Virus record (IMG/VR): IMGVR_UViG_3300047469_000099
Location: 1 to 42,035 of that record
Length of the DNA stretch: 42,035 bases
Direction: 5' to 3' (one strand)
DNA from: a virus
The position numbers and the translations under genes were made by a program. The notes beneath the pieces were generated by a model that did no database searches, was not told the DNA's origin, and saw nothing but the letters and a program-made list of their open reading frames with translations. Each line of letters starts with the position of its first letter. The stretch's first letter is position 1. Shown one piece after another: positions 428 through 42,035 of this stretch.

Positions 428-1144
428 TCAGGGCCCTTTCTTTTTTTTGCGGCCGTCGCCGCGCGGAATGACGGAAAACAGTTCCGGCTTCCCAGAAGGG
501 CTGCTGTTCAATACAGCTGTGTCATTGACAGGCACACCACTCTCGTTGAGGCGCTTCGCCTGGTTCTGTAATACCGGACTGCGGCCGCCTGTGACCACCA
601 CCGACTGATCCGACATACCGCTCTGAATCTGCTGCACCAGGTCGTCGATGCCGTACGGCGGGTCCTGTTCTGTCACGCGGCTGTTGTAATGGTGCGTGCC
701 CTTATAGAACACGTCCGGGCTATCGAATTCGGGCATGCCTAGCTGGCTGCGTGCCTTGTTGATCGCCTGGAATTGCTCCGGAGTGAGCGACCCGATGTCG
801 ATTGGCCTCGCCCGATCGCCGCGCTGAAGCGCCTCTAGCAGCGTGCGCGCCTCGCCCAGCGCGCCTGGCTTTAGTGGCCCGGCGAGCATCGGAATCAAGC
901 CGCCAACGGCGTCCGCTGTAGTGCCGGGCTGGTCGGACAATATCCCTGCGTCGCGCATCTTCTGAGCAATCCAGTCCGAGCCGCCGACCGGGTTCGTGAC
1001 CTGCGGAAAGCCTTGCGGCAAGAACTGGCCTGCCGTCGCCATCAGCGCATTGATCGCATCCGCCGACAGATCGACAGGCGCGCCCAGCGCATCAGCCGTG
1101 TAGCCGCGTGAGGCGCCGCCCATGAGCGCGTCGAGTATGCCCAT
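428..1144 (-). CDS. Virion-associated protein with toxin-like C-terminal domain (left copy)
   Basis: 238 residues. The N-terminal part (about 1-105) has a Gly/Ala-rich start with GYTADALGAPVDLSADAIN and a PVGGSDWIAQKM segment, resembling segments I associate with phage virion proteins. The C-terminal part (about 115-238) contains FYKGTHHYNSRV, IDDLVQQIQSG and ends ELFSVIPRGD plus a Lys tail. This layout recalls the PBECR group (phage barnase/EndoU/colicin E5-D/RelE-like nucleases), but I cannot confirm the fold. The right copy (37344-38048) keeps the N-terminal part and the ending but differs strongly between them, as toxin tips do. The start overlaps the stop of the HslV-like gene (TGATG). 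Function otherwise unknown. Confidence 0.6.
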   Translation of the reverse strand: MGILDALMGGASRGYTADALGAPVDLSADAINALMATAGQFLPQGFPQVTNPVGGSDWIAQKMRDAGILSDQPGTTADAVGGLIPMLAGPLKPGALGEARTLLEALQRGDRARPIDIGSLTPEQFQAINKARSQLGMPEFDSPDVFYKGTHHYNSRVTEQDPPYGIDDLVQQIQSGMSDQSVVVTGGRSPVLQNQAKRLNESGVPVNDTAVLNSSPSGKPELFSVIPRGDGRKKKKGP

Positions 1145-1578
1145 CAGTTACTCGCGCAGTTGGCATCGAAGGCCATGACTTCGCCACCGGTGAAAACGTC
1201 ATACAGCGCGGCAATCTCGATGGCCTCGCGCGCGGTGCGACCGCAATGCATGGCCGCCATCGCAAAATCGCGGCCACTTCCCATCGCGTGAAACGACTCG
1301 TGGAGGGGAAGTCGGATCAGCATTTCCTCGAGCCGGAAGGCTTCACCCGTGGGAGCTATAAGCAGCCCAGCAAAGTCATCCGCTTTCGGCTTAAGCGCAC
1401 TCGGATCGGCCTTCTCCAGCCACTCCTTCACCGCACGAATTTGCCCATAGTCACCGGATCCGGCGAAGAGCGCGCCGTCAGGCAGCGCGAACAGTTTCAC
1501 GGCCCTGTATGGCATGCCACTGGACGTCGCCCGAGTATCGGCCGCAAGCGTCTTGCCGTCCCACGCGATCGTCGTCAT
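1144..1578 (-). CDS. HslV/proteasome-beta-like Ntn-hydrolase (left copy)
   Basis: 144 residues beginning MTTIAWDGKTLAADTRAT. Removing Met leaves an N-terminal Thr, the catalytic nucleophile of HslV and proteasome beta subunits. The AAD motif (D14), a Lys at about 28 (YRAVKLF) and the glycine loop FAGSGDYG fit the Asp17, Lys33 and Gly47 positions of that family. It is shorter than bacterial HslV (about 175 residues), and no HslU ATPase gene is in the window. The ATG at 1576-1578 overlaps the stop of the upstream gene as ATGA, which fixes the start. It lies among the head genes, so a role in processing virion or host proteins is possible, but the target is unknown. Confidence 0.72.
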   Translation of the reverse strand: MTTIAWDGKTLAADTRATSSGMPYRAVKLFALPDGALFAGSGDYGQIRAVKEWLEKADPSALKPKADDFAGLLIAPTGEAFRLEEMLIRLPLHESFHAMGSGRDFAMAAMHCGRTAREAIEIAALYDVFTGGEVMAFDANCASN

Positions 1579-1865
1579 ACCTTGCCCGGCGCCACGCGGA
1601 AATAAGCCATGCCCGGATCGTTGCAGATCGCCTTGATGTGCGCCGGATCGCGAAAGAACTCCTGCCACGTCATGCCGCGCGTGTAGCAGTACTGTTCGAT
1701 CACGATGCCGGGAATGTTCGCGACGTGGCGCATGTCCTTGTCGCCGAACTGCTGCGTCGCGCGCAGCTCGGCGTTGTGATCGAGCAAACCGTCGAAGCGC
1801 GCGGTGTGCACTACGACCGTTTCGTCTTTGTCCGGGTTCGCGATGAATTCGGTCGTCGAGTGCAT
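1575..1865 (-). CDS. Conserved phage protein of unknown function, 96 aa (left copy)
   Basis: 96 residues with the segments TEFIANPDKDETVVVHTARFD and VANIPGIVIEQYC, no membrane segment and no motif I recognise. It sits between the 142-residue protein and the HslV-like peptidase, in the stretch where phages often encode small head-completion proteins. The start has AAGGG upstream. The change from diverged to identical repeat sequence falls inside this gene: its 5' half matches the right copy exactly and its 3' half differs (EQYCYTRGMTW here, EAYCFRIGITW in the right copy). Confidence 0.7.
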   Translation of the reverse strand: MHSTTEFIANPDKDETVVVHTARFDGLLDHNAELRATQQFGDKDMRHVANIPGIVIEQYCYTRGMTWQEFFRDPAHIKAICNDPGMAYFRVAPGKV

Positions 1866-1873
1866 ACCGACCC

Positions 1874-2302
1874 TTACAGCAGCGCTTTCGCGCGGTCGAT
1901 CACAGCGATGATCTCGCTCTTGCCCATGTGCACGATGCCTTCGAGATCATCCAGCATCGTTTGCAGAATGGACTTGTGATCCGGCTCAGCGACGACGGCG
2001 GAGCCGGTGGCATCTGCGGCAGAGGTCGACGCCGGCGACTGCGCGGCCGAGACACCACCAGCAGCGTTTCCCTCGTCAGCCGTAACCAAGCCTGTCGCAG
2101 ACACACCCGGGGCCGCGGCAGCCGATGCACCGTTTCCCGCGTCGACCGGCGCGAGCAGCGAGTCGGCGCTCGGATCGACCGTCGCGCCGTTGGCGATCAA
2201 CCCCGGCACGCCACCACTGTCGATAACCACGATGCCGACGAGCTGCTCAGCTTCGCTCGCAAAGATGATCTTCGTATCCGGGTTGTAGTAGAGCCTTTCC
2301 AT
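1874..2302 (-). CDS. Small head-region protein of unknown function, 142 aa (left copy)
   Basis: 142 residues. The first 50 (MERLYYNPDTKIIFASEAEQLVG onward) look folded; the middle is an Ala/Gly/Ser-rich linker; the end (about 108-142) is a predicted helix, HKSILQTMLDDLEGIVHM. A folded domain, flexible linker and terminal helix would suit a capsid decoration or completion protein, but no family is recognised. GGAG precedes the ATG at 2300-2302. It is the first gene after the terminator that follows the coat gene, so it is probably expressed by read-through at a lower level than coat protein. Identical to 38772-39200. Confidence 0.7.
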   Translation of the reverse strand: MERLYYNPDTKIIFASEAEQLVGIVVIDSGGVPGLIANGATVDPSADSLLAPVDAGNGASAAAAPGVSATGLVTADEGNAAGGVSAAQSPASTSAADATGSAVVAEPDHKSILQTMLDDLEGIVHMGKSEIIAVIDRAKALL

Positions 2303-2319
2303 TTCGAATCTCCGTGCGT

Positions 2320-2348
2320 CAAATGAAAACAGCCCCTACGCGAGGGGC
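2320..2348 (-). terminator. Intrinsic terminator after the coat gene (left copy)
   Basis: On the minus strand the stem GCCCCT/AGGGGC (2332-2337 with 2343-2348, loop of five) is followed by TGTTTTCATTT. It begins about 15 bases after the coat stop codon, and probably lowers transcription of the downstream genes relative to coat. The same hairpin is at 39218-39246. Confidence 0.78.
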
Positions 2349-2362
2349 CGTTCCCGTTGCAA

Positions 2363-3319
2363 TTACGACAGGTCGCGAACCTGCGCGGAACTGGCTTCGT
2401 TCCGGGCTTCGAGCGTGCCTTCCCAGGTGATCTGGAAGTTGCGCGCGTCGCCCGTCTTCGCCAGTTCTTCCTTGTCGAACGGGCGCAACGTGGCGAGAGC
2501 CCACAGGTCAGTATCGACCGCGTACGCCGCGTTGTCCGGCGTTGCTACGCCACCCATGACGCGATTCGGGATGATCGACACGTTGCCGAAGTCGCCCGCA
2601 TAGACCGCAAAGGCCGAGTTGAGCACCGCGGCTTTGCCGGTTCCGGCCACCTCGACCTGACGGACTGCGTTGCCCACGAACGTCGACGTCACCTGCTTGT
2701 CGACCGGACGGACGTGCAACTGGCTGACGTTGCCGCCAGCGTTGTACGCGCCGAGCAACGCGGCTTTCAGCAACGGCTCGGCCCACGCGCGATTCGTACC
2801 CGCGACCGGCGCGGTATTCGTCGACGGAACCGGCGCGGCCGAACCTGTGCCACCGCTGAAGTTGGTCGCGATCCAGCCCTTCAGGCCACGCATCGTGCGG
2901 GCGACGGACGCAGAGCCAACAATCGAGGTGGCGTTCATGATGGTGGCCGCTTCGATGTCCTTCTTCAGCTCGACAGCCTTCTTCGCCGACAAACGGGCGA
3001 TTTCCTTGGGGCCGGCCTTCTTCACTGCTTCCTGCGTGCCCGACACGCTGAACGTGTCCTGCACGATCTGGCAGCGGTTGCCGATCCGAACAGTCGGGTT
3101 CTGTGCGGTATAGGTCGCATCAGCACCTTCGACTGCTGCATTAGCTGCGTTCGGCGCGCGCAGCGCGTCGGTTTGCCACTCGTGCAGCACAGCATCAGCG
3201 CCCACCTTTTCGAGGGCCGACGTGAACGGCGTATCGGCCGGGCTGATCATGAAGACCTTGTCGATGAGGTCTTCGCGGTTACCTACGGTCGAGTAGGTCG
3301 TGACGGTATTGGCGGGCAT
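2363..3319 (-). CDS. Major capsid protein, SU10/DUF5309-like (left copy)
   Basis: 318 residues. The N-terminus (TYSTVGNREDLIDKVFMISPADTPF) matches the conserved opening of the DUF5309/SU10 major head protein family: a short lead, then NREDL, then SPxDTPF. The rest is mixed alpha/beta as expected of an HK97-fold coat protein. Its position directly after a scaffold-like gene and its own terminator (2320-2348) support a highly expressed coat gene. The ATG at 3317-3319 has AAGGAG seven bases upstream. It forms the capsid shell around the DNA. Identical to 39261-40217. Confidence 0.85.
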   Translation of the reverse strand: MPANTVTTYSTVGNREDLIDKVFMISPADTPFTSALEKVGADAVLHEWQTDALRAPNAANAAVEGADATYTAQNPTVRIGNRCQIVQDTFSVSGTQEAVKKAGPKEIARLSAKKAVELKKDIEAATIMNATSIVGSASVARTMRGLKGWIATNFSGGTGSAAPVPSTNTAPVAGTNRAWAEPLLKAALLGAYNAGGNVSQLHVRPVDKQVTSTFVGNAVRQVEVAGTGKAAVLNSAFAVYAGDFGNVSIIPNRVMGGVATPDNAAYAVDTDLWALATLRPFDKEELAKTGDARNFQITWEGTLEARNEASSAQVRDLS

Positions 3320-3351
3320 TTTGCTCGCTCCTTATGCGAAGTCCGGCGCGC

Positions 3352-4335
3352 TTATTCGAAGAAAGCGGCCAGCGTATTTACGGATGGAGCCGCCTTGAAT
3401 GCCTTCCCAGCGTTGGCCTTCGCCATCTGGTTTCTGTTCGGCACCTGGCTTGCTCCGGGTCGCTCGGTGCGCGGCGCGGGTCGCACGCCTTGTTGCACCG
3501 CTTTTTGCTTGGCCTTTGCCTGGTCGTACAGCATTGCCTTGCGGGCAATCAGAAACACCTCGGCGGTATCCATTTGGGCCTGCATTTCTGCGGTAATCCC
3601 TTGGGTTTCGAGGTATTTGCCGACCGCCTGTGCGCCTTCCGCTGCCTTCGCCGGGTCCTTCCATTCCGGGATAGCCTCAACGATTTTCTGCGTCGCTTCG
3701 GTGAGACGTCCCTGGAGGCTTGCCGCCTGCTGCTCTGCGTTGCGCTGTTCGAGTGTCTGCTGCACCTGCATGGCCTCATGCAACTGCGCCTGGCGCTGCT
3801 CCCACTGATGCCGGATCCGAACATACTGATTCGGGTCTTGGGCCAGCAGAGCTTCCCAGTTTGGCTGTTGCGAAGCCATCAAGGCTTGCGACTCTCGAAT
3901 GTAGTGCTCCAGTACTGTGCCCAACTGCTTTTCCCGTTCGGGAACCTGGGCTAACTTGGCCTCGGCGTCCTTCCGGATAGCCGCGGCTTCTTCAAACTTG
4001 CGATTCGCGCCGTGATATTTCGACGCTTCAGCGATCAGTTCAGATTGCGTCTTCGTGATCGTCTTGCCGTCGCCGACAGGAATCTCGAAAACCGGATCCT
4101 GCCCGCCGTCTTCGCCGTCACCCTGCTCGCCCTCATCGGCGTTTTCATCGCCGGAGAGAACCAACTCGTCACCGGCGGCGGCATTGTCACCGCCAGCCGC
4201 ATGCGTGCTGCCATCGTCGTCTTCACCGTCTCGCGCTTCGAACATCGCTTCGAGCGACGGACCACCGCCGTCATCATCGGCAGCATGAAACATGAACGAC
4301 AGCAGAACACGCTTGAGCAACTTGGAAATATTCAC
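3352..4335 (-). CDS. Capsid scaffolding protein (left copy)
   Basis: 327 residues from a GTG at 4333-4335. I chose this start because AGGAG lies six bases before it; the TTG six bases earlier would abut the AGGAG. Residues about 15-80 are very acidic (Asp/Glu/Gly), the middle (about 105-220) is a long charged, Gln-rich coiled coil, and the C-terminus is basic and Pro-rich. This is the usual plan of podovirus scaffolds, which line the procapsid and leave before or during packaging. It lies between portal and coat, the standard place. No protease motif is visible in it. Identical to 40250-41233. Confidence 0.78.
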   Translation of the reverse strand: MNISKLLKRVLLSFMFHAADDDGGGPSLEAMFEARDGEDDDGSTHAAGGDNAAAGDELVLSGDENADEGEQGDGEDGGQDPVFEIPVGDGKTITKTQSELIAEASKYHGANRKFEEAAAIRKDAEAKLAQVPEREKQLGTVLEHYIRESQALMASQQPNWEALLAQDPNQYVRIRHQWEQRQAQLHEAMQVQQTLEQRNAEQQAASLQGRLTEATQKIVEAIPEWKDPAKAAEGAQAVGKYLETQGITAEMQAQMDTAEVFLIARKAMLYDQAKAKQKAVQQGVRPAPRTERPGASQVPNRNQMAKANAGKAFKAAPSVNTLAAFFE

Positions 4336-4395
4336 GCACAACTCCTATTCGCTCGCTTCAGCGCGGCGGTTTTCAGGGAATATAAGACTTCACCA

Positions 4396-6864
4396 CTACT
4401 GCATCAACTGTTCAGCAATGCGAAACTCGCGGTTGATCGCCTGCTGTTCGTCGGATTGCTGATCTTGCTGAATAGCGTTGTTCATCGCGACTTCAGTAGC
4501 GGGGTCTGTAACCTTGGCTGCGAACGCAGCTTTCTCACGATCCGCAGCCAGTTGCGCATAGAACTTCTCGCGCTCCCAGGCAAGATTTTGCGTAGCGGCA
4601 TCGCGTTCGCGCTTGTCGAGCAACGCTTCGTGCTGCGTCTGCAACTGCGCTTTCAGATTGGTCTCGCGCACGCTTTGCTGTTCCTGCTGCTGAATCTTCG
4701 CGGCGTCCGTCTGTTGCTGCAGCTGTGCCTTGGTCGTCTCGATCTGGACCTGACCGTTGATGAGCTGTTGCTGCGGATCTGGATGCGGCGGCTGCGGCGG
4801 CGGCGCTTGCGGCGGCGAGAAGAACTGTGACGGCTCGCCAAGCTGCAAAGCCTGCACGAGCTCGGTCGCCGACTTGTAGATGTTCTGCGGCGTCACCGTG
4901 CTCGCAACGGCAGGATTCGGGCTCTGCGCGATGGTCTGCTGCACACCGAGCAGATTGGTCAACTGCTGAACACGCCGGCCGCTGTCGCCGGTCCCGGTCC
5001 CCACGTCGGCTTTCATCGAATACTGGTTGCGCCACACGCGCGGATCAACGTCGACCCAACTGCCGTTGAGTTGGAACGTCATGTTCTTGTCCTGATAGTT
5101 CGCGAGCAGCTTCTGGATCAACCGGAACAGATCTTTCACGCCGGTCTCGGCGAACGTCCGCGCGATCAGCTTCACGCGCAGATCGGCGCGCTGCGTGATG
5201 TTTTCAATACCGGTCGCCGTATGGTTCAGCGTGTCGCTGTCGAGCCCCTGACTGTATTTCGTGATGCCAGTGCGTTCCTGCGACATGCTGTCGACGTACT
5301 GCAGCAACTGATATGCGCCGGCGCTGTCCGACATACCTTGCTGGATCGGCCCGATTGCATTCATGCCGGCGCCGCCCTTTACGCGAACCGGTCGGCCCGG
5401 CGCGTTATTCAGGAAGTCGGACATGTTGACCTTGGTCTCGTCGACCCACGAACGCCCGTTGATCTGAATGTTCATGTTGTCCTGCAGCCCGCGAAGCATT
5501 CCAGTCTTCAGCTTCTGGATCGGCATAGCGAGATCGGCAATCGATCTACCATGCAGCAAGCCGGGGATGCGCACCGGGCACAGCACAGCATACGGCGGCC
5601 CGTCGCACACCTCGTTATCGAGGATGACGTCGCCGGCCTTGGTGATCTTGCGCCACTCCGAAATGCCATCGCCGTCGCAGTCGATCGGCAGATAGCATTC
5701 GTACAGCCAGACCTTGCGCTGCGACTCGTCGCCGTTGCCATCGTCTTCGACCATCGTGGCGAATGCGTCCTCGAGCGACGTGCGCGCCTGCGAAAGCCCA
5801 TTGAGCGTGGCCGTTTCTGCGCTCGGATCGGACGAAATGTCGTCGACATTCGCGTAACCGGCAGCGCGCAACTCCGAAATCGACTTCTTGACGCGATCCG
5901 CACAAAAGCCGTCGCGGATCCGGCGCGACGTCTGCGCGACAAGGAAGTCTTCGGAGTTCAGCGCTTCGATCGCCACGTGGCCGGTCTTCTTCGAGATCGT
6001 CAGAACAACGTTGTGCAGCTGCGGCAGCGCCGAGACGTCAACCGGCGGCGGTGGCTGCATCGGTGCCTGCGGTTGCGGCGGCTGGCCCGACGGCATGGCA
6101 CCAGACGGCGGCATACCGGCACCCGGTGCCGGGTTCGGATGTGCGACTTGAGCCTGATAGGCCTGCTGAGCCTGCTGGAACTGCATCATCGTGGCGCGCT
6201 CGGCAGCTGGATCGACGTAGCTAGTGATGCTGGTGATCGTCACGCCGGCGTCGTTCGTGAGGATGGCCAGTTGCTCGTCAGTCAGACCGGTGTACTCTTC
6301 ACGCGTCGTCTCGGTTTCTTCTTCCCACCAGCATTTCGCAACGCCGATCTTGAAGATCAACGCCGTCTTGAACCAGTCCATGAACACTTCAAAACCGGGG
6401 TTCTGCTCGTTCACGACGTGATTAGCCAAGTGTGTCATCTGCTCGGCGCCCTGCTCGTCGCTGGGTTTGCGCGGGCAGAACTTCACTGGCTTTCCAGAGG
6501 CGAAGAAAATCTCCATGAGCGACGGCATCAACCACTCGACCTGATCGCTCACGACGGTGTCGACGACTGCAGACCGCCCTTCGACTTCGGGAGCCGCCAA
6601 ATCACCCTCAGCAAGGCCGAGGTAGTACTGCATCGCCTTTTCCTGCTCTTTGGCAATGCCAGTCCCTAGCCAGCTCTGCGACTGCGAGATATGACTCTCG
6701 ACGATTGCCGAGATTTCCTCGTCAGACATCTTGACAGGCGCTTCACCATCGCTGCCCATCTGCGTGATCTGCTGGACCGGAACACCCGGCTCCGGAACGC
6801 CGGCCGGCGATGAGTCAGGCAGCATCGACAGCGCGACTTGCTCGAGTAGTTGGTTTTGGTCCAT
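4396..6864 (-). CDS. Portal protein, SU10/phiEco32-like
   Basis: 822 residues, within the range of podovirus portals. The N-terminal 60 residues are acidic and Gln/Met-rich. The core includes MDWFKTALIFKIGVAKCWWEE and a long helical region, with a Pro-rich insert at about 235-270. The last ~130 residues are a Gln/Ala-rich coiled coil, probably the barrel reaching into the capsid. Twelve copies would form the DNA channel at one capsid corner. The start overlaps the large-terminase stop (TAATG), tying translation of the two. The C-terminal 247 residues are encoded again, identically, at 41294-42035. Confidence 0.85.
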   Translation of the reverse strand: MDQNQLLEQVALSMLPDSSPAGVPEPGVPVQQITQMGSDGEAPVKMSDEEISAIVESHISQSQSWLGTGIAKEQEKAMQYYLGLAEGDLAAPEVEGRSAVVDTVVSDQVEWLMPSLMEIFFASGKPVKFCPRKPSDEQGAEQMTHLANHVVNEQNPGFEVFMDWFKTALIFKIGVAKCWWEEETETTREEYTGLTDEQLAILTNDAGVTITSITSYVDPAAERATMMQFQQAQQAYQAQVAHPNPAPGAGMPPSGAMPSGQPPQPQAPMQPPPPVDVSALPQLHNVVLTISKKTGHVAIEALNSEDFLVAQTSRRIRDGFCADRVKKSISELRAAGYANVDDISSDPSAETATLNGLSQARTSLEDAFATMVEDDGNGDESQRKVWLYECYLPIDCDGDGISEWRKITKAGDVILDNEVCDGPPYAVLCPVRIPGLLHGRSIADLAMPIQKLKTGMLRGLQDNMNIQINGRSWVDETKVNMSDFLNNAPGRPVRVKGGAGMNAIGPIQQGMSDSAGAYQLLQYVDSMSQERTGITKYSQGLDSDTLNHTATGIENITQRADLRVKLIARTFAETGVKDLFRLIQKLLANYQDKNMTFQLNGSWVDVDPRVWRNQYSMKADVGTGTGDSGRRVQQLTNLLGVQQTIAQSPNPAVASTVTPQNIYKSATELVQALQLGEPSQFFSPPQAPPPQPPHPDPQQQLINGQVQIETTKAQLQQQTDAAKIQQQEQQSVRETNLKAQLQTQHEALLDKRERDAATQNLAWEREKFYAQLAADREKAAFAAKVTDPATEVAMNNAIQQDQQSDEQQAINREFRIAEQLMQ

Positions 6865-10665: not shown

Positions 10666-10890
10666 TTAAAACGTCGTCGGTTGCGCGATCGACCGGATGA
10701 CCGCCATAAAACCTACCTGCAACTCCGTCTTGCCGATCGCAAGCCAGCGCTTGTCGACGCCCGGCAGAGTCTCAAGCGCTTCCAGTTCGACGCGCAGGTT
10801 CTCCGCAAAATCTTTGATCACATTCATCGACGAAATCTCTTCCGGCGACAGGTCGCGATAGCCCTTGATCTGCTTATGCTGGTTGTCCAT
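10666..10890 (-). CDS. acb2: Acb2/Tad1-hairpin family protein, predicted cyclic-nucleotide sponge (anti-CBASS)
   Basis: 74 residues beginning [18 protein letters not shown]. The conserved parts of the Acb2 family are all visible: the QIKGYRDLS helix start, a central charged helix ([19 protein letters not shown]), then [19 protein letters not shown] followed by SIAQP at the C-terminus. Known family members form hexamers that bind CBASS signals such as 3',3'-cGAMP and cyclic trinucleotides, which stops CBASS effectors. I assign the family by these motifs; ligand and activity are inferred. TTGGAG precedes the ATG at 10888-10890, so I prefer it over longer frames. It lies in the early minus-strand operon, as an anti-defence gene should. 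Confidence 0.78.
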
Positions 10891-10987
10891 CAGTTCTCCA
10901 ATTCCCATTTCTGAGGGGTTAGGGGGTTTGCTTTTGTTGGGTTGCACGGAAATCGTTTTTTCTCGCACAGGTTCCAGTTCGCATTTG

Positions 10988-18294: not shown

Positions 18295-18516
18295 ATGTCG
18301 AAAAAACACATAGCGGCACTCGGTGCCGGTTTCATGTTGCTCATGCTTGCCGGATGCGATGTCGGTGACGACACCGACGACCGGACCAACAACCACGCAT
18401 CGGGCATGGCGCTTTATACCGACTACGGAACTGGTTGCCAGTATGTGCGCGCCGGCGGCGGTGGCATCACACCTCGCATGGGCGCAGATGGAAGGCAGGT
18501 TTGCCATGGCAAATAA
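18295..18516 (+). CDS. Small lipoprotein, DUF6440-like
   Basis: 73 residues. A lipoprotein signal peptide is clear: MSKKHIAALGAGFMLLMLAGC with lipobox LAGC and Cys21. The mature part (about 53 residues) ends with a domain YTDYGTGCQYVRAGGGGITPRMGADG, which matches the DUF6440 pattern (TGxxY, GGG, TP, DG). It would sit on the inner face of the outer membrane or in the periplasm. A prophage lipoprotein expressed in lysogens is a candidate for superinfection exclusion or host-surface change; that role is inferred only from type and position. Confidence 0.72.
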   Translation: MSKKHIAALGAGFMLLMLAGCDVGDDTDDRTNNHASGMALYTDYGTGCQYVRAGGGGITPRMGADGRQVCHGK

Positions 18517-18853
18517 CCGCCGCTCAGCGATCGTCGATCTGTTGGCGTCCAAGGGCAAGCCGATGTCCACGAAGGCGATCGCTGAAGCTTTGGGCGTCGA
18601 TGCTGGCGTCATGGGCACCCGCGTTCGCCAGCTTGAGGAATCCGGCAAGCTGGCACCGGTTGGGACGGCCACCCGCACGCGCGACGTGCGCTGGATACCC
18701 GCAGACCCTGACGTCATTGGCCGGCGCCCGAAGATCGCTATCAGCTACCGCGCCGCCGAAAACATCGAGGCCATGCGCGCCGCCGCGCTCGAGCGGATGC
18801 TCGAAGGCAAGCCGGCGAACTGGGTGCAGGAACCTGACGAGGTCACAGCATGA
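18506..18853 (+). CDS. Winged-helix-type DNA-binding protein, 115 aa
   Basis: 115 residues beginning MANNRRSAIVDLLASKGKP. Residues about 4-60 fit a winged helix (MSTKAIAEALGVDAGVMGTRVRQLEESGKLAPVG followed by the wing and RDVRWIPA). The rest is a helical tail. GGAAGG lies upstream of the ATG at 18506, which overlaps the lipoprotein end by 11 bases. Probably a regulator of the lysogeny or excision genes that follow. Confidence 0.65.
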   Translation: MANNRRSAIVDLLASKGKPMSTKAIAEALGVDAGVMGTRVRQLEESGKLAPVGTATRTRDVRWIPADPDVIGRRPKIAISYRAAENIEAMRAAALERMLEGKPANWVQEPDEVTA

Positions 18854-32049: not shown

Positions 32050-32498
32050 GAGGTGCTCCCCGGTTTAAGCTTCTGCAGCAGTTGCAGAAGTGAATTCCCT
32101 CCGGCGCTTCCGCCCACAGGCACGTAATCCATGATTGGGACCTGAAAGTTCTGCGCTTGCAGCCGCACACCACCGCCAGCGCCTCGCGCGCCGCCGCCCG
32201 TCGATGAAGTCGGGGTTCCGAGTGCTTTGCTGGTCGATCCTAGGGCGCTTTGCATGCCTTGCAGGCTCGGCAGTCCACCCGAACCGCTCGTGAATCCATA
32301 GCTGTTCGAACCGGCATCCTGAGTCGGAAGAGACATGCCCGAACCGACACCGGAGAGTCCGGCAAACGAGTCTCCCGCGCCGCTGCTGAAATCGCTGGGC
32401 ATGGTGAACCCGAAGCTGTTCGAACCCACTCCCGAGCTGCCGCTGGAAAACGCGCTGCCAAGATCGGCCATGCTGCTTGCGTCGCCACTTGAACTCAT
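32046..32498 (-). CDS. Ser/Gly-rich virion protein, 150 aa
   Basis: 150 residues beginning MSSSGDASSMADLGSAFSS. Low-complexity Ser/Gly/Thr sequence with two similar segments, SNSFGFTMPSD and SNSYGFTSGSG, then a more ordered end QAQNFQVPIMDYVPVGG and LLQLLQKLKPG. AAGGGG lies before ATG 32496-32498, which overlaps the previous stop as TGATG. Probably a structural or tail-tip component; no family recognised. Confidence 0.6.
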   Translation of the reverse strand: MSSSGDASSMADLGSAFSSGSSGVGSNSFGFTMPSDFSSGAGDSFAGLSGVGSGMSLPTQDAGSNSYGFTSGSGGLPSLQGMQSALGSTSKALGTPTSSTGGGARGAGGGVRLQAQNFQVPIMDYVPVGGSAGGNSLLQLLQKLKPGSTS

Positions 32499-33502
32499 CA
32501 CGACCCCTTGAGCAGGCTGGCGACACCCAGCCCGGTTTGACCGATCCCAAGCAGCGTGGCGAGCGAATTGCCGCTGCCAGCGGTGGACGTCTGAGTGGTG
32601 ATACCGGCGCCACTGCCGAGCGCGCCCGAAAGAGCGCTCGAAAGAGTCGAAAGGTTCGAGTAGGGCTGGTTCACCTGGTTGTACCACTGCTGATACAGCG
32701 CATTGAGCTGATCCTGGTTGTTGCTCTGCGCAGCCGTGCCGCCGGTCAGCTGGTTGCCATAGAGGCTCGACGCCGCGGTATTGGCCGCAGTGGATCCATT
32801 CAGCGCATTGGCAATATTGCTCTGCTGGTTGTTGTAGTTCGAGCTTGCCTGCGTGTTGTAGGCCTGATTCGCACTCGTACCGACAGACTGGTTCGCCAGA
32901 TTCACGGCGTTTTGCTGCGCGGCGTTCTGCGACGCGACGCCTGCGGCCGTGTTGTAGGCCGAGTTGTACATGCCAGCGGTGTTATTCGAGAGCGTGTTAG
33001 CGAGGCTGTTTTCATTCGCCGTCGTCGCCTGCTGCTGTGCGCTGCCACCGAATGCGCCGGCATTACGGAACTGCGCAAGCGTATTCGCGGCTGTGCCGTT
33101 CTGATACGCGTCCGTGATCTGTTGGTTTGAAGCCGCGACCGTTTGCGCGAGATATGGATTGTTCGACGGATCGGCGTAAGAGTCAGCCGCCGTCGACGCG
33201 TTCACATTCCCGGTGTACGGGTTCGTGATGGAATATCCGTTCGCATTCCCAAGCAGAGAGTTGTAATAGCTCTGCGCCGCGCTGGAGGTGTTCGCCTGAT
33301 TGCCAGCCGCGCTCGTCAACCCGGAAATTGCACCGGTCTGCGTGCCGTTCATATCTGCAACGGTCTGGCCGGTGTACTGCGGCGTGGTCGTGTTCGACAA
33401 ATCAGCGCCACGCTGGAGCAATTGCTGGGCAAACGGCTGCGCCCATGACGGCAACTCTTGTGTCGTCGTCGTGCTGCCGCCACCACCACCGCCCGAGCTC
33501 AC
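32498..33502 (-). CDS. Asn/Ala/Gln-rich virion protein, 334 aa
   Basis: 334 residues from a GTG, beginning with a seven-residue Ser/Gly run and TTTTQELPSWAQPFAQQLL. That opening and the long Asn/Ala/Gln/Ser-rich helical body are seen in podovirus tail or ejection proteins encoded next to the internal virion genes. A short hydrophobic end (LATLLGIGQTGLGVASLLKGS) may touch membrane. The exact role is not known. GTGA joins it to the HNH gene upstream. Confidence 0.6.
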   Translation of the reverse strand: MSSGGGGGGSTTTTQELPSWAQPFAQQLLQRGADLSNTTTPQYTGQTVADMNGTQTGAISGLTSAAGNQANTSSAAQSYYNSLLGNANGYSITNPYTGNVNASTAADSYADPSNNPYLAQTVAASNQQITDAYQNGTAANTLAQFRNAGAFGGSAQQQATTANENSLANTLSNNTAGMYNSAYNTAAGVASQNAAQQNAVNLANQSVGTSANQAYNTQASSNYNNQQSNIANALNGSTAANTAASSLYGNQLTGGTAAQSNNQDQLNALYQQWYNQVNQPYSNLSTLSSALSGALGSGAGITTQTSTAGSGNSLATLLGIGQTGLGVASLLKGS

Positions 33503-34014
33503 GCAGCCTCCGCGAAGTTGTGGTTTGCAAACTCGCCATGATGTTCACGGCGCAGCCGAATTGCCGCAGCGGCAGCATCAAGTAACGACGCATGACGCTC
33601 GCGGAACATCCGACCAGCGACACGGACGCGCACATCCCACTTTTTCGCAAGCTCGTGCCACGTCACTCCTTTGACGCCGGACGCAGCCACCGTCTTATGG
33701 CCCACGTTCCACGAACTTTCGGCGGGATTTGCTGCGCGGAGGTTCTTCCATCGATTGTTAGAGGGGTGTGTGTCGCGATGATCGACGATGTGATCGGGCC
33801 AGGCGCCAGTCATGAATGCCCAAGCTAGGCGATGGCCATATGCGCGCATTCCATCGCACCGGATGTCAACGTAGCCGTGCGCATTGAGCCCCCCGACCAT
33901 GTCGCCAGCAATGCGCCGGGCGTTCGCTTTTGCGGCAGCCTTCGACCACGTGAACGCACCCGTCTCCGGGTCATAATCGATCAGCTCTCTAAATCGCGCC
34001 AGCTTCGCATCCAT
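33499..34014 (-). CDS. HNH endonuclease with AP2-like domain
   Basis: 171 residues. The HNH core reads YGHRLAWAFMTGAWPDHIVDHRDTHPSNNRWKNLR (60-93), with His61, His79, the Asp-His pair and Asn87. NPAESSWNVG and GVTWHELAKKWDVRVRVAGR (about 116-135) follow, an AP2-type DNA-binding segment. Such proteins are homing-type endonucleases common in phage structural regions. It is not inside another gene but heads the virion operon, translationally joined to the next gene by GTGA. GGAG lies upstream of its ATG. Confidence 0.88.
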   Translation of the reverse strand: MDAKLARFRELIDYDPETGAFTWSKAAAKANARRIAGDMVGGLNAHGYVDIRCDGMRAYGHRLAWAFMTGAWPDHIVDHRDTHPSNNRWKNLRAANPAESSWNVGHKTVAASGVKGVTWHELAKKWDVRVRVAGRMFRERHASLLDAAAAAIRLRREHHGEFANHNFAEAA

Positions 34015-34030
34015 TTCCTGCGCTCCAAAA

Positions 34031-34064
34031 ACAAAAACGGCCCACCCCCGGAGGGATGGGCCGT
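34031..34064 (-). terminator. Strong intrinsic terminator before the HNH gene
   Basis: On the minus strand ACGGCCCA/TGGGCCGT (34064-34057 with 34044-34037) around a 12-base loop is followed by TTTTGTTTTT. It lies 17 bases before the HNH start and about 23 bases after the predicted start of transcription at 34087, so that transcript would end after roughly 60 bases unless terminator read-through occurs. Confidence 0.82.
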
Positions 34065-34085
34065 CTGTGACGATAGGCTACTTGC

Positions 34086-34121
34086 TGGCTAGAATTCTAG
34101 CCACAAGTTTAGGAATGTCAA
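34086..34121 (-). promoter_or_regulatory. Promoter under an 18-bp palindrome
   Basis: On the minus strand TTGACA (34121-34116), 16 bases, TAGAAT (34099-34094): a perfect -35 and a five-of-six -10. The -10 lies inside the perfect palindrome TGGCTAGAATTCTAGCCA (34086-34103), which extends further with CTTG/CAAG and one bulge. A protein bound there would block RNA polymerase. The start of transcription would be near 34087. Confidence 0.72.
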
Positions 34122-34134
34122 CGAATCGTGGTTG

Positions 34135-34413
34135 CTAATCGCGAATGACAATGCTGGCTAGCCATATCGCGACCGGTGCCGCAAAAATAATGGAAACTAC
34201 CCAGTTACCGCCGATGAGAAAGATGACCGCCGCGGCAAAAAGCAGGACCATGATCGAGCGCAGACCGCGACCCACGGAAACTGCGCCGCGCACGCCGGCA
34301 TCGGCAACAACTGCAGCACCGGCAGCCACGTCACTGGGCTTTCTGAGGTAGTAAATGAAGAGTGCCGCCAGAATGACAAGCATCACAACAAAAGCAGGGG
34401 GAAACGTAATCAT
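34135..34413 (-). CDS. Small membrane protein, 92 aa
   Basis: 92 residues beginning MITFPPAFVVMLVILAALF. One N-terminal membrane segment (about 5-24), a short soluble Ala/Gly/Val-rich loop, and a long hydrophobic end (SIMVLLFAAAVIFLIGGNW, then SIIFAAPVAIWLASIVI) that fits two more. GAGAAG lies before the ATG. No family recognised; it is too far from the lysis genes to call it a holin. It is the last gene before the palindrome-controlled promoter. Confidence 0.65.
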   Translation of the reverse strand: MITFPPAFVVMLVILAALFIYYLRKPSDVAAGAAVVADAGVRGAVSVGRGLRSIMVLLFAAAVIFLIGGNWVVSIIFAAPVAIWLASIVIRD

Positions 34414-34457
34414 GGTCTTCTCGTGAGTAGTTATTCGTATCCGAATAATAGACCAAC

Positions 34458-34889
34458 TCACGCTGCGTTCAAGGGGTCAACGTCACATTCAAACGTGACA
34501 TGCCGCAGTCTGAAGCCGTGCCGCGGCGCGACCTTCTCCCAGCCGCGCCGCGAAGAACCGAACGTCAGTTTGAGCGCCGGGTGAGGCGTCGCGTTGCGCG
34601 CGATCATCATAAGATCGTCTCGAAAGACCGACATCGGATCGAAACCGGGCCGGGCGTAGAGTAGCCAGATATGCAGGTCGCGGCCAAGCAGCCGCAGGAC
34701 CATCCAGCCGATCCGCTCGTCGTCGACGTGCAGCAGGAAAAGCGTGGCATCGCCTGCTCGACACATCGCGTAGGCATCTTCCGGGATAAATCCGTCTGGC
34801 GCTTCCACGATCGCAACTTCGTCTCTGATCAGCGGCCATACCCGTTGCAGGTCAGCAGGGGCGATTGCCTCTAGTTTCCGGTCAGGCAT
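34458..34889 (-). CDS. GNAT-like phage protein, 143 aa
   Basis: 143 residues beginning MPDRKLEAIAPADLQRVW. The sequence runs FIPEDAYAMCRAGDATLFLLH, GWMVLRLLGRDLHIWLLYARPGFD, LKLTFGSSRRGWEKVAPRHGF: the strand order of an N-acetyltransferase (GNAT) fold, ending in the usual GWEKVAxRxGF pattern. The acetyl-CoA loop (Q/RxxGxG/A) is not clear, so it may be a structural relative. GGAG stands seven bases before the chosen ATG; two earlier ATGs (34895, 34904) are possible. Similar proteins occur near tail genes of podoviruses. Confidence 0.6.
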   Translation of the reverse strand: MPDRKLEAIAPADLQRVWPLIRDEVAIVEAPDGFIPEDAYAMCRAGDATLFLLHVDDERIGWMVLRLLGRDLHIWLLYARPGFDPMSVFRDDLMMIARNATPHPALKLTFGSSRRGWEKVAPRHGFRLRHVTFECDVDPLNAA

Positions 34890-37344: not shown

Positions 37345-38048
37345 CATTTCCCGTTTGGCTTTTTGAAATCGCCCTTTGGAATGACGGAGAAAAGTTGGGG
37401 ATTCTTCGAGCCTGACGTTTCAAACGTCACCGTATCGCGCACGTTGTTGCCATAACCGTCCGCCCGTGGCGTCTGGTTCACGAGATTTGGTCTGCCGAAT
37501 CGGTCAACCGTGACCTGTGATGTCGGCGATAGCCCGTTTTCGATCTGCGCAAGCATGTCGTCGATCGAATAGCCGTCCGCCGACCTGCTCGCATAGTGAT
37601 GCGTCCCGCGATACCAGAGATCAGCGCCAACGGCCGGTTGTCCGTTTGCTGCACGCGCTGAGTTCAACTGCGTTAGCTGCCGGTCCGTCAACGAACCAAT
37701 GTCAATTGGCTTGGGCTTGCCTCCAGCCGCAATCGCCTCGAGCAATGTGCGCGCTTCGCCGAGTGCGCCAGGCTTAACAGGCCCGGCAAGCAACGGAATA
37801 AGACCGCCGACCGCATCCGCAGCGGTGCCCGGCTGATCGGACAGCATGCCGGCGTCGCGCATCTTCTGCGCGATCCATGCCGAGCCGCCGACCGGGCTAC
37901 TGATCTGTGGGAACCCTTGGGGGAGAACCTGGCCGGCAGACGCGGTCAACGCATTGATCGCATCCGCAGACAGATCGACGGGCGCGCCCAGCGCATCGGC
38001 CGTGTATCCGCGTGAGGCTCCGCCCATGAGCGCGTCGAGTATTCCCAT
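37344..38048 (-). CDS. Virion-associated protein with toxin-like C-terminal domain (right copy)
   Basis: 234 residues. The first ~105 are close to the left copy (GYTADALGAPVDLSADAIN, PVGGSAWIAQKM). The C-terminal part reads LWYRGTHHYASRS, YSIDDMLAQIENGLSP, NLVNQTPRADGYGNNVRDTV and ends PQLFSVIPKGD; several of these blocks are quite different in the left copy. If this is a PBECR-type nuclease domain, the two copies could differ in activity or immunity. It overlaps the HslV-like gene as TGATG. Confidence 0.6.
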   Translation of the reverse strand: MGILDALMGGASRGYTADALGAPVDLSADAINALTASAGQVLPQGFPQISSPVGGSAWIAQKMRDAGMLSDQPGTAADAVGGLIPLLAGPVKPGALGEARTLLEAIAAGGKPKPIDIGSLTDRQLTQLNSARAANGQPAVGADLWYRGTHHYASRSADGYSIDDMLAQIENGLSPTSQVTVDRFGRPNLVNQTPRADGYGNNVRDTVTFETSGSKNPQLFSVIPKGDFKKPNGK

Positions 38049-38476
38049 CAGTTACTCGCGCAGTTGGCATCGAAGGCCATGACTTCGCCACCGGTGAAAA
38101 CGTCATACAGCGAGGCAATCTCGACGGCCTCGCGGGCGCTGCGACCGCAATGCATTGCAGCCATCGCAAAATCTCGGCCGCTGCCAATAGCATGGAATCG
38201 CTCATGAATCGGAAGGCGGATCAATGTTTCCTCGAGCCTGAACGCCTCGCCAGTCGGCGTCACGAACAGACCCGCGAAATCATCCGTTTTCGGCATCTGT
38301 GTGATCATGTGTTCAAGCCATTCTTTTACCGCGCACACCTGCCCATAGTCGCCCGATCCAGCGAAAAGCGAGCCGTCAGACAACACGAACATTTTCACGG
38401 CCTTGTACGGCATACCGCTCGACGTCGCCTGGGTGTCTGCCGCCAGCGTCTTGCCATCCCATGCGATCGTCGTCAT
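38048..38476 (-). CDS. HslV/proteasome-beta-like Ntn-hydrolase (right copy)
   Basis: 142 residues, beginning MTTIAWDGKTLAADTQATSS. It keeps Thr2, Asp14, Lys28 and the AGSGDYGQ loop of the left copy, but differs elsewhere (for example EHMITQMPKTDDFAGLFV against EKADPSALKPKADDFAGLLI) and is two residues shorter. Conservation of the catalytic set across two diverged copies supports a working enzyme. ATGA overlap with the gene upstream. Confidence 0.72.
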   Translation of the reverse strand: MTTIAWDGKTLAADTQATSSGMPYKAVKMFVLSDGSLFAGSGDYGQVCAVKEWLEHMITQMPKTDDFAGLFVTPTGEAFRLEETLIRLPIHERFHAIGSGRDFAMAAMHCGRSAREAVEIASLYDVFTGGEVMAFDANCASN

Positions 38477-38763
38477 ACCTTGCCCGGCGCCACGCGGAAA
38501 TAAGCCATGTCCGGATCGTTGCAGATCGCCTTGATGTGCTTCGGATCTCGGAAGAATTCCTGCCACGTGATGCCGATGCGGAAGCAATACGCCTCGATCA
38601 CGATGCCGGGGATATTGGCGACGTGCCGCATGTCCTTGTCGCCAAATTGCTGCGTCGCGCGCAGCTCGGCGTTGTGATCGAGCAAACCGTCGAAGCGCGC
38701 GGTGTGCACTACGACCGTTTCGTCTTTGTCCGGGTTCGCGATGAATTCGGTCGTCGAGTGCAT
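38473..38763 (-). CDS. Conserved phage protein, 96 aa (right copy)
   Basis: Same length as the left copy (1575-1865). Its first ~38 codons are identical at the DNA level (38648-38763) and the rest diverged, so this gene carries the mosaic boundary of the repeat. Function unknown. Confidence 0.7.
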   Translation of the reverse strand: MHSTTEFIANPDKDETVVVHTARFDGLLDHNAELRATQQFGDKDMRHVANIPGIVIEAYCFRIGITWQEFFRDPKHIKAICNDPDMAYFRVAPGKV

Positions 38764-38771
38764 ACCGACCC

Positions 38772-39200
38772 TTACAGCAGCGCTTTCGCGCGGTCGATCA
38801 CAGCGATGATCTCGCTCTTGCCCATGTGCACGATGCCTTCGAGATCATCCAGCATCGTTTGCAGAATGGACTTGTGATCCGGCTCAGCGACGACGGCGGA
38901 GCCGGTGGCATCTGCGGCAGAGGTCGACGCCGGCGACTGCGCGGCCGAGACACCACCAGCAGCGTTTCCCTCGTCAGCCGTAACCAAGCCTGTCGCAGAC
39001 ACACCCGGGGCCGCGGCAGCCGATGCACCGTTTCCCGCGTCGACCGGCGCGAGCAGCGAGTCGGCGCTCGGATCGACCGTCGCGCCGTTGGCGATCAACC
39101 CCGGCACGCCACCACTGTCGATAACCACGATGCCGACGAGCTGCTCAGCTTCGCTCGCAAAGATGATCTTCGTATCCGGGTTGTAGTAGAGCCTTTCCAT
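38772..39200 (-). CDS. Small head-region protein, 142 aa (right copy)
   Basis: Identical to 1874-2302: folded N-terminal part, Ala/Gly/Ser linker and C-terminal helix. It lies just after the coat terminator, as in the left copy. Confidence 0.7.
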   Translation of the reverse strand: MERLYYNPDTKIIFASEAEQLVGIVVIDSGGVPGLIANGATVDPSADSLLAPVDAGNGASAAAAPGVSATGLVTADEGNAAGGVSAAQSPASTSAADATGSAVVAEPDHKSILQTMLDDLEGIVHMGKSEIIAVIDRAKALL

Positions 39201-39217
39201 TTCGAATCTCCGTGCGT

Positions 39218-39246
39218 CAAATGAAAACAGCCCCTACGCGAGGGGC
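39218..39246 (-). terminator. Intrinsic terminator after the coat gene (right copy)
   Basis: Identical to 2320-2348: stem GCCCCT/AGGGGC (39230-39235 with 39241-39246) followed on the minus strand by TGTTTTCATTT. Confidence 0.78.
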
Positions 39247-39260
39247 CGTTCCCGTTGCAA

Positions 39261-40217
39261 TTACGACAGGTCGCGAACCTGCGCGGAACTGGCTTCGTTC
39301 CGGGCTTCGAGCGTGCCTTCCCAGGTGATCTGGAAGTTGCGCGCGTCGCCCGTCTTCGCCAGTTCTTCCTTGTCGAACGGGCGCAACGTGGCGAGAGCCC
39401 ACAGGTCAGTATCGACCGCGTACGCCGCGTTGTCCGGCGTTGCTACGCCACCCATGACGCGATTCGGGATGATCGACACGTTGCCGAAGTCGCCCGCATA
39501 GACCGCAAAGGCCGAGTTGAGCACCGCGGCTTTGCCGGTTCCGGCCACCTCGACCTGACGGACTGCGTTGCCCACGAACGTCGACGTCACCTGCTTGTCG
39601 ACCGGACGGACGTGCAACTGGCTGACGTTGCCGCCAGCGTTGTACGCGCCGAGCAACGCGGCTTTCAGCAACGGCTCGGCCCACGCGCGATTCGTACCCG
39701 CGACCGGCGCGGTATTCGTCGACGGAACCGGCGCGGCCGAACCTGTGCCACCGCTGAAGTTGGTCGCGATCCAGCCCTTCAGGCCACGCATCGTGCGGGC
39801 GACGGACGCAGAGCCAACAATCGAGGTGGCGTTCATGATGGTGGCCGCTTCGATGTCCTTCTTCAGCTCGACAGCCTTCTTCGCCGACAAACGGGCGATT
39901 TCCTTGGGGCCGGCCTTCTTCACTGCTTCCTGCGTGCCCGACACGCTGAACGTGTCCTGCACGATCTGGCAGCGGTTGCCGATCCGAACAGTCGGGTTCT
40001 GTGCGGTATAGGTCGCATCAGCACCTTCGACTGCTGCATTAGCTGCGTTCGGCGCGCGCAGCGCGTCGGTTTGCCACTCGTGCAGCACAGCATCAGCGCC
40101 CACCTTTTCGAGGGCCGACGTGAACGGCGTATCGGCCGGGCTGATCATGAAGACCTTGTCGATGAGGTCTTCGCGGTTACCTACGGTCGAGTAGGTCGTG
40201 ACGGTATTGGCGGGCAT
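39261..40217 (-). CDS. Major capsid protein, SU10/DUF5309-like (right copy)
   Basis: Identical in DNA and protein (318 residues) to 2363-3319. The absence of even silent changes in a pair of copies whose downstream genes have diverged points to recent exchange or to an assembly overlap. Confidence 0.85.
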   Translation of the reverse strand: MPANTVTTYSTVGNREDLIDKVFMISPADTPFTSALEKVGADAVLHEWQTDALRAPNAANAAVEGADATYTAQNPTVRIGNRCQIVQDTFSVSGTQEAVKKAGPKEIARLSAKKAVELKKDIEAATIMNATSIVGSASVARTMRGLKGWIATNFSGGTGSAAPVPSTNTAPVAGTNRAWAEPLLKAALLGAYNAGGNVSQLHVRPVDKQVTSTFVGNAVRQVEVAGTGKAAVLNSAFAVYAGDFGNVSIIPNRVMGGVATPDNAAYAVDTDLWALATLRPFDKEELAKTGDARNFQITWEGTLEARNEASSAQVRDLS

Positions 40218-40249
40218 TTTGCTCGCTCCTTATGCGAAGTCCGGCGCGC

Positions 40250-41233
40250 TTATTCGAAGAAAGCGGCCAGCGTATTTACGGATGGAGCCGCCTTGAATGC
40301 CTTCCCAGCGTTGGCCTTCGCCATCTGGTTTCTGTTCGGCACCTGGCTTGCTCCGGGTCGCTCGGTGCGCGGCGCGGGTCGCACGCCTTGTTGCACCGCT
40401 TTTTGCTTGGCCTTTGCCTGGTCGTACAGCATTGCCTTGCGGGCAATCAGAAACACCTCGGCGGTATCCATTTGGGCCTGCATTTCTGCGGTAATCCCTT
40501 GGGTTTCGAGGTATTTGCCGACCGCCTGTGCGCCTTCCGCTGCCTTCGCCGGGTCCTTCCATTCCGGGATAGCCTCAACGATTTTCTGCGTCGCTTCGGT
40601 GAGACGTCCCTGGAGGCTTGCCGCCTGCTGCTCTGCGTTGCGCTGTTCGAGTGTCTGCTGCACCTGCATGGCCTCATGCAACTGCGCCTGGCGCTGCTCC
40701 CACTGATGCCGGATCCGAACATACTGATTCGGGTCTTGGGCCAGCAGAGCTTCCCAGTTTGGCTGTTGCGAAGCCATCAAGGCTTGCGACTCTCGAATGT
40801 AGTGCTCCAGTACTGTGCCCAACTGCTTTTCCCGTTCGGGAACCTGGGCTAACTTGGCCTCGGCGTCCTTCCGGATAGCCGCGGCTTCTTCAAACTTGCG
40901 ATTCGCGCCGTGATATTTCGACGCTTCAGCGATCAGTTCAGATTGCGTCTTCGTGATCGTCTTGCCGTCGCCGACAGGAATCTCGAAAACCGGATCCTGC
41001 CCGCCGTCTTCGCCGTCACCCTGCTCGCCCTCATCGGCGTTTTCATCGCCGGAGAGAACCAACTCGTCACCGGCGGCGGCATTGTCACCGCCAGCCGCAT
41101 GCGTGCTGCCATCGTCGTCTTCACCGTCTCGCGCTTCGAACATCGCTTCGAGCGACGGACCACCGCCGTCATCATCGGCAGCATGAAACATGAACGACAG
41201 CAGAACACGCTTGAGCAACTTGGAAATATTCAC
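40250..41233 (-). CDS. Capsid scaffolding protein (right copy)
   Basis: Identical to 3352-4335, including the GTG start with AGGAG six bases upstream: acidic N-terminal region, Gln-rich coiled coil and basic end. Confidence 0.78.
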   Translation of the reverse strand: MNISKLLKRVLLSFMFHAADDDGGGPSLEAMFEARDGEDDDGSTHAAGGDNAAAGDELVLSGDENADEGEQGDGEDGGQDPVFEIPVGDGKTITKTQSELIAEASKYHGANRKFEEAAAIRKDAEAKLAQVPEREKQLGTVLEHYIRESQALMASQQPNWEALLAQDPNQYVRIRHQWEQRQAQLHEAMQVQQTLEQRNAEQQAASLQGRLTEATQKIVEAIPEWKDPAKAAEGAQAVGKYLETQGITAEMQAQMDTAEVFLIARKAMLYDQAKAKQKAVQQGVRPAPRTERPGASQVPNRNQMAKANAGKAFKAAPSVNTLAAFFE

Positions 41234-41293
41234 GCACAACTCCTATTCGCTCGCTTCAGCGCGGCGGTTTTCAGGGAATATAAGACTTCACCA

Positions 41294-42035
41294 CTACTGC
41301 ATCAACTGTTCAGCAATGCGAAACTCGCGGTTGATCGCCTGCTGTTCGTCGGATTGCTGATCTTGCTGAATAGCGTTGTTCATCGCGACTTCAGTAGCGG
41401 GGTCTGTAACCTTGGCTGCGAACGCAGCTTTCTCACGATCCGCAGCCAGTTGCGCATAGAACTTCTCGCGCTCCCAGGCAAGATTTTGCGTAGCGGCATC
41501 GCGTTCGCGCTTGTCGAGCAACGCTTCGTGCTGCGTCTGCAACTGCGCTTTCAGATTGGTCTCGCGCACGCTTTGCTGTTCCTGCTGCTGAATCTTCGCG
41601 GCGTCCGTCTGTTGCTGCAGCTGTGCCTTGGTCGTCTCGATCTGGACCTGACCGTTGATGAGCTGTTGCTGCGGATCTGGATGCGGCGGCTGCGGCGGCG
41701 GCGCTTGCGGCGGCGAGAAGAACTGTGACGGCTCGCCAAGCTGCAAAGCCTGCACGAGCTCGGTCGCCGACTTGTAGATGTTCTGCGGCGTCACCGTGCT
41801 CGCAACGGCAGGATTCGGGCTCTGCGCGATGGTCTGCTGCACACCGAGCAGATTGGTCAACTGCTGAACACGCCGGCCGCTGTCGCCGGTCCCGGTCCCC
41901 ACGTCGGCTTTCATCGAATACTGGTTGCGCCACACGCGCGGATCAACGTCGACCCAACTGCCGTTGAGTTGGAACGTCATGTTCTTGTCCTGATAGTTCG
42001 CGAGCAGCTTCTGGATCAACCGGAACAGATCTTTC
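41294..42035 (-). CDS. Portal protein, partial C-terminal part (right copy)
   Basis: The last 247 residues of the portal, identical to the matching part of 4396-6864, including the Pro-rich stretch and the Gln/Ala coiled coil. The 5' part lies beyond the window end. The frame is open to the edge, so this is a cut gene and not a pseudogene. Confidence 0.85.
   Translation of the reverse strand, partial: KDLFRLIQKLLANYQDKNMTFQLNGSWVDVDPRVWRNQYSMKADVGTGTGDSGRRVQQLTNLLGVQQTIAQSPNPAVASTVTPQNIYKSATELVQALQLGEPSQFFSPPQAPPPQPPHPDPQQQLINGQVQIETTKAQLQQQTDAAKIQQQEQQSVRETNLKAQLQTQHEALLDKRERDAATQNLAWEREKFYAQLAADREKAAFAAKVTDPATEVAMNNAIQQDQQSDEQQAINREFRIAEQLMQ

Follow-up and report, generated by a model that had tools for sequence, protein, structure and literature searches.

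In lambda, the late operon is headed by pR', a sigma-70 promoter with a conserved spacer that is served by Q and whose default product is a short RNA ending at the promoter-proximal intrinsic terminator tR' (the 6S RNA region), with the late genes lying behind it. In T7, the T-phi attenuator, a terminator placed after the major capsid gene, limits expression of the late genes downstream. The pR'-tR' region of Stx phages is constitutively transcribed and is terminated in lysogeny, yielding the small RNA StxS (PMC7873438). At PalpB-tB of Pseudomonas aeruginosa, AlpA uses an element located between the -35 and -10 hexamers (PMC7969949, PMC9371919), which reads GGGACG (PMC9371919), and the first gene under its control is directly preceded by an intrinsic terminator. 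Likewise, a putative site for GafZ is positioned between the -35 and -10 hexamers of the promoter of the Caulobacter gene transfer agent cluster, where virion genes lie behind terminators, the leader is long, and the factor works alongside the activator GafY (PMC11150451).

The locus analyzed here lies in a 42,035-nt IMG/VR record (the whole of this stretch is called the window), and its anatomy, as far as it can be read from the sequence, matches that of promoter-into-terminator systems; for the Q type it is at most a candidate. Like pR'-tR', it has a predicted sigma-70 promoter with a conserved spacer that runs into a promoter-proximal intrinsic terminator ahead of late genes and would yield a short RNA by default, but whereas pR' heads the late operon, the unit described here sits inside the morphogenesis operon before the ejection genes, leaves only about 25 nt between the -10 hexamer and the terminator stem, and belongs to a phage without a detected Q-family gene and without a clear sigma pause element. 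With PalpB-tB it has in common the conserved spacer element and an intrinsic terminator directly ahead of the first gene that would be controlled; its spacer, however, reads TTCCTAAACTTGTGGC instead of GGGACG, no AlpA relative was identified, and the genes that follow encode ejection and fibre proteins. It resembles the GafZ promoter in having a putative factor site between the two hexamers and virion genes that lie beyond a terminator. Like T-phi, it places an intrinsic terminator inside a late operon, but here a strong promoter lies just 5' of the terminator and the two are conserved together. Our best reading, by analogy, is that this is an attenuated late promoter like lambda pR'-tR' or Pseudomonas PalpB-tB, with regulated read-through that would act as a locked gate opened late in infection, and we give this reading a probability of roughly 0.5.

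Judging from the gene content of the window, the record derives from a temperate, podovirus-like phage. The minus strand carries terminase, portal, DNA ejection, and stabilisation-type virion genes, and the window also holds an integrase gene and, on the plus strand, a gene for an S24-type repressor. The two ends of the window (827-5137 and 37731-42035) form an inexact repeat with 96% identity over 4.3 kb, which suggests a genome of about 36.9 kb, circular or redundant, that was assembled from two strains. A second intrinsic terminator, which has no promoter, lies directly 3' of a 318-aa likely capsid gene on the minus strand (2352-2328) and is retained in two related genomes (G001 and G005). 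No near relative of the phage clade was found among the isolate records searched.

Table 1. Positions in the window of the promoter-terminator unit and the genes beside it
Feature	Position	Strand	Remark
-35 hexamer TTGACA	34116..34121	-	Invariant in the five clade A sequences compared
Spacer block TTCCTAAACTTG between -35 and -10	34104..34115	-	Invariant in clade A
-10 hexamer TAGAAT	34094..34099	-	Fits consensus TAnAAT
18-bp perfect palindrome TGGCTAGAATTCTAGCCA	34086..34103	.	Probably incidental; arms not conserved
First transcribed bases (predicted) AGCAAGTAGCCTATC	34072..34086	-	Start predicted by distance to the -10
C[T/C]A[T/C] motif, CCTAT in the window	34073-34077	-	7 nt 5' of the stem
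Hairpin of the intrinsic terminator with 14 pairs and a loop of 4, then TTGTTTTT (34034-34027)	34035..34066	-	
Ribosome-binding region GGAG...AGG of the next gene	34017..34026	-	Right after the U-tract; alike in relatives
HNH endonuclease gene	33499..34014	-	phrog_99, E = 2.7e-53
DNA ejection protein gene, conserved downstream neighbour	32498..33502	-	phrog_4287, E = 3.9e-21
Membrane-protein-like ORF, upstream, variable	34135..34461	-	

The promoter, TTGACA-16-TAGAAT on the minus strand (34121-34094), was already recorded in the initial annotation, and its coordinates were correct when the sequence was rechecked. It matches the consensus at 11 of 12 positions with a spacer of 16, its -10 hexamer agrees with the mapped -10 consensus of Burkholderia cenocepacia (PMC4603805), and the spacing from the -10 predicts a transcription start near 34087. 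Chance expectations come from 100 dinucleotide-shuffled versions of the 36.9-kb unit: 7% of them contained an 11/12 promoter somewhere, 2% a promoter of at least 10/12 followed by a terminator, and 29% a palindrome of 18 bp. In view of these frequencies, the promoter-terminator pair calls for an explanation, while the palindrome calls for none of its own. A second TTGACA-16-TAGAAT on the minus strand (16953-16926) was set aside, as it is antisense to the opening codons of an early gene on the plus strand; it is partly retained in G001 and G005 and tracks the coding sequence in relatives, and its retention is probably due to coding constraint.

Relatives were collected with the stabilisation and ejection proteins as queries in scans of viral and bacterial contigs, which gave loci ranging from near-identical to about 25% protein identity. 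The promoter and terminator are kept as a unit in at least ten related phage or prophage loci, always directly 5' of the DNA-ejection gene, and the named hosts of these loci are Burkholderiaceae. Two of the loci are located in bacterial genome assemblies (L017 in Paraburkholderia sp. Ac-20340, L018 in Burkholderia pseudomultivorans), and the unit thus exists in prophages. A strong hairpin with a U-tract directly precedes the ejection gene in the window and in L006, L007, L031, L017, L026/L018, L011, L027, L030, L028, L032, L029, and L021, and in every one of these except L021 a promoter-like -10 ends 19 to 36 nt 5' of the stem. Taken one by one, the promoter matches reach significance against shuffles (p < 0.05) in the window's clade, L028, L030, and L032; those of L026, L027, and L029 are weaker, and that of L011 does not reach significance. 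Stem and loop sequences have been replaced between lineages, with predicted stabilities of -15 to -27 kcal/mol and long U-tracts, and the promoter-terminator order is preserved. In more distant loci (L033, L034, L035, L036, and L020), there is no such unit, and the ejection gene directly follows the preceding gene. The pair therefore exceeds chance, as its conservation confirms. That functionless promoter-like and terminator-like sequences merely happen to stand side by side, as they do in the few shuffled genomes noted above, is extremely improbable, given that about ten divergent loci have kept both parts in this position.

Within clade A, which comprises the window, L006, L007, L031, and L017, conservation of the promoter is much finer. 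The -35 hexamer and spacer (TTGACATTCCTAAACTTG) are invariant at 18 of 18 positions, as are TAGAATTCT and the leader AGCAAGTAGCC, and over the 50-bp block that begins with the -35 and ends with CCTATC, 45 to 50 positions agree with the window. At its four-fold degenerate sites, the ejection gene of L006 is 85% identical to that of the window; the block still holds 45 to 46 of 50 positions in sequences where such sites are only 41 to 50% identical. Lineages outside clade A have other spacers, and the complete promoter motif is confined to clade A and to this locus alone. Exact matches to the 18-mer elsewhere (L041-L043) lie in unrelated coding sequence and were discarded. The conserved spacer coincides with the position of the AlpA, lambda Q, and GafZ elements (PMC7969949, PMC11150451), and the spacer block may possibly be a factor-binding element.

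The palindrome behaves differently. A repressed promoter, with a dimeric repressor bound to the 18 bp that cover the -10, had been suggested at first and would make sense of the perfect symmetry and its overlap with the -10 hexamer. The arms, however, have changed in L007, L031, and L017, all of which retain the promoter, and among promoter-keeping relatives the palindrome shrinks from 18 to 12, 10, and 8 bp. They are in fact the least conserved part of the promoter block in clade A and hold most of its differences, with TGGC, TCTC, CCTC, or CCTA on one side and AGCC or GACG on the other. The CI proteins of phages carrying the promoter are at most about 40% identical to that of the window or give no detectable match, and another genome, G014, with a CI 90% identical to the window's, lacks the promoter-terminator site. 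In this test for an immunity operator, the site neither co-varied with the repressor nor recurred in the immunity region, and the divergence of CI among carriers, together with G014, shows that the site is not an immunity operator. With such palindromes also arising so often in shuffled genomes, we consider repression through this symmetry very improbable, and the palindrome itself is probably incidental.

The terminator had been described as an 8-bp hairpin followed by a T-run; both elements are present, and the stem is longer, with 14 pairs. At about -25 to -27 kcal/mol, it is the best terminator-like site of the genome. Promoter and terminator coordinates together predict an RNA of about 58 nt (from about 34087 to about 34030), in agreement with the earlier estimate that transcripts would end near 60 bases. 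Between the two, [C/T]CTA[C/T] is found 5 to 7 nt 5' of the hairpin in 9 of 11 sequences, with CCCAT at this position in L031 and L017. The motif lies anywhere between 7 and 24 nt from the -10 in these 11 sequences, and C[T/C]A[T/C] is coupled to the terminator and not to the promoter. It is not accounted for by base pairing between the leader and the ribosome-binding site (mean z of 0.13, no signal), nor by a sigma pause element: the -10-like TATCGT occurs in the first transcribed bases of the window, and such elements were not above chance in any lineage. Leader-peptide attenuation was dismissed, as the leader contains no ATG. Possible roles for the motif are those of an sRNA seed, a site where a protein binds the RNA, or a component of a loading signal.

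These features raise the question of whether the locus is primarily a phage small-RNA gene, whose product of about 58 nt would work in trans on mRNAs of the host or the phage and whose location before the ejection gene is secondary. A 5' single-stranded stretch followed by a terminator hairpin and U-tail is a typical sRNA layout, the leader is invariant in clade A, the C[T/C]A[T/C] motif keeps its distance from the stem in almost all lineages, and StxS, made between pR' and tR', provides a precedent (PMC7873438). Against this, pairing of the leader to phage gene starts, the only targets covered, did not go beyond that of shuffled leaders, and the window gave no Rfam match that reached the gathering score. 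A small RNA would also be insufficient by itself, since the terminator would block the downstream genes unless it were bypassed, and it leaves the invariant spacer unexplained. We therefore regard this explanation as unlikely; under an attenuated late promoter, the short RNA would be a default by-product.

The genes around the unit bear on what it controls. The initial annotation had counted the HNH endonuclease gene among the genes served by the promoter, and this did not hold for the conserved unit: the gene is an insertion precisely at the junction of terminator and ejection gene, where it takes the place next to the terminator, and is present only in the window and near-identical records and absent from L006, L007, L026, L031, and others. 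Where it is missing, the ribosome-binding site of the ejection gene adjoins the U-tract, and the terminator leads straight into that gene. On the other side, the gene varies among relatives, being the membrane-protein-like ORF, an acetyltransferase-like gene, or another ORF; in L017 and L026 the membrane-protein-like ORF is not beside the unit, which travels with the ejection gene when the upstream genes change. The unit is placed between the head-tail genes and the ejection-fibre block, and the genes behind the terminator serve DNA injection, host attachment, and probably lysis.

On the late strand of the window, no promoter-like site with at least 9 of 12 consensus matches lies between the terminator and position 20,001, and the downstream genes would thus depend on read-through, as had been proposed on first inspection. 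In the mechanism that we favor, host sigma-70 RNA polymerase would start near 34087, make about 58 nt, and then halt, presumably efficiently, at the intrinsic terminator. Production of the ejection proteins, a 948-aa transglycosylase-type virion protein, the fibres, and the products of later genes would then require read-through by polymerases that may come from this promoter or from the upstream late genes. By analogy with lambda Q at pR' and AlpA at PalpB, a late factor might modify the polymerase at the promoter through the invariant spacer and leader. Presence of a terminator in every unit-bearing lineage, despite replacement of stem and loop, supports such a gate, and the partly weak promoter scores outside the window's clade count against it. 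This locus would offer a conserved gate, defined by its sequence, between the head-tail genes and the ejection-fibre block, and regulated read-through, if it occurs here, would show that an antitermination checkpoint can divide a late operon from within.

A simpler arrangement would be a passive attenuator, in which a constitutive promoter and a partly leaky terminator fix the output of the ejection-fibre genes at a low level relative to the head genes without any dedicated factor. No co-inherited factor was found, the genome carries the promoterless terminator after the likely capsid gene, and ejection proteins are needed at low copy in P22, about 12 to 30 per virion (PMC8402733), all of which would fit. 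Yet hairpins of the stabilities given above, with long U-tracts, should terminate strongly, and a fixed output requires neither an invariant spacer nor an invariant leader, and so we think passive attenuation rather unlikely.

A factor for the attenuated late promoter was sought among known families and by gene content. Members of the Q families PF06530, PF03589, and PF06323 gave no match in 11 records, the PF06323 search being one without a positive control. Known antiterminators of this kind have no mutual sequence similarity (PMC7969949), so an antiterminator of another type is possible. Comparison of gene content between records with and without the invariant promoter yielded no factor cleanly co-inherited with it. 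A winged-helix ORF (18506-18853) is the only DNA-binding gene that co-occurs with the invariant promoter, being found in all five clade A genomes checked (the window, G001, G004, G005, and the L017 prophage region) and absent from genomes with other spacers; it was rejected as the factor, since G014 carries a 79% identical copy without the site, and its structure model was too poor for use (pLDDT of 47.5). More speculatively, and in our estimate quite improbably, the C[T/C]A[T/C] motif in nascent RNA or DNA and the promoter might be recognized by an undescribed type of antitermination factor, encoded by the structural module or the host, that would open a second gate to late genes within the morphogenesis operon. 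A new antiterminator in Burkholderiaceae phages could be sought with the invariant 18-bp promoter block as bait.

G014 (L086/L087) has the same immunity and lysogeny module as the window, with the closely related CI mentioned above, and a largely unrelated structural module (TerL, 26% identity), which by sequence is a clear case of module exchange. The promoter belongs to the structural module and not to the immunity module. Elsewhere in the window, a small protein encoded on the minus strand (10666-10968) contains an Acb2/Tad1 hairpin domain (PF24729, E = 8e-15) and is likely an anti-CBASS or anti-Thoeris sponge.
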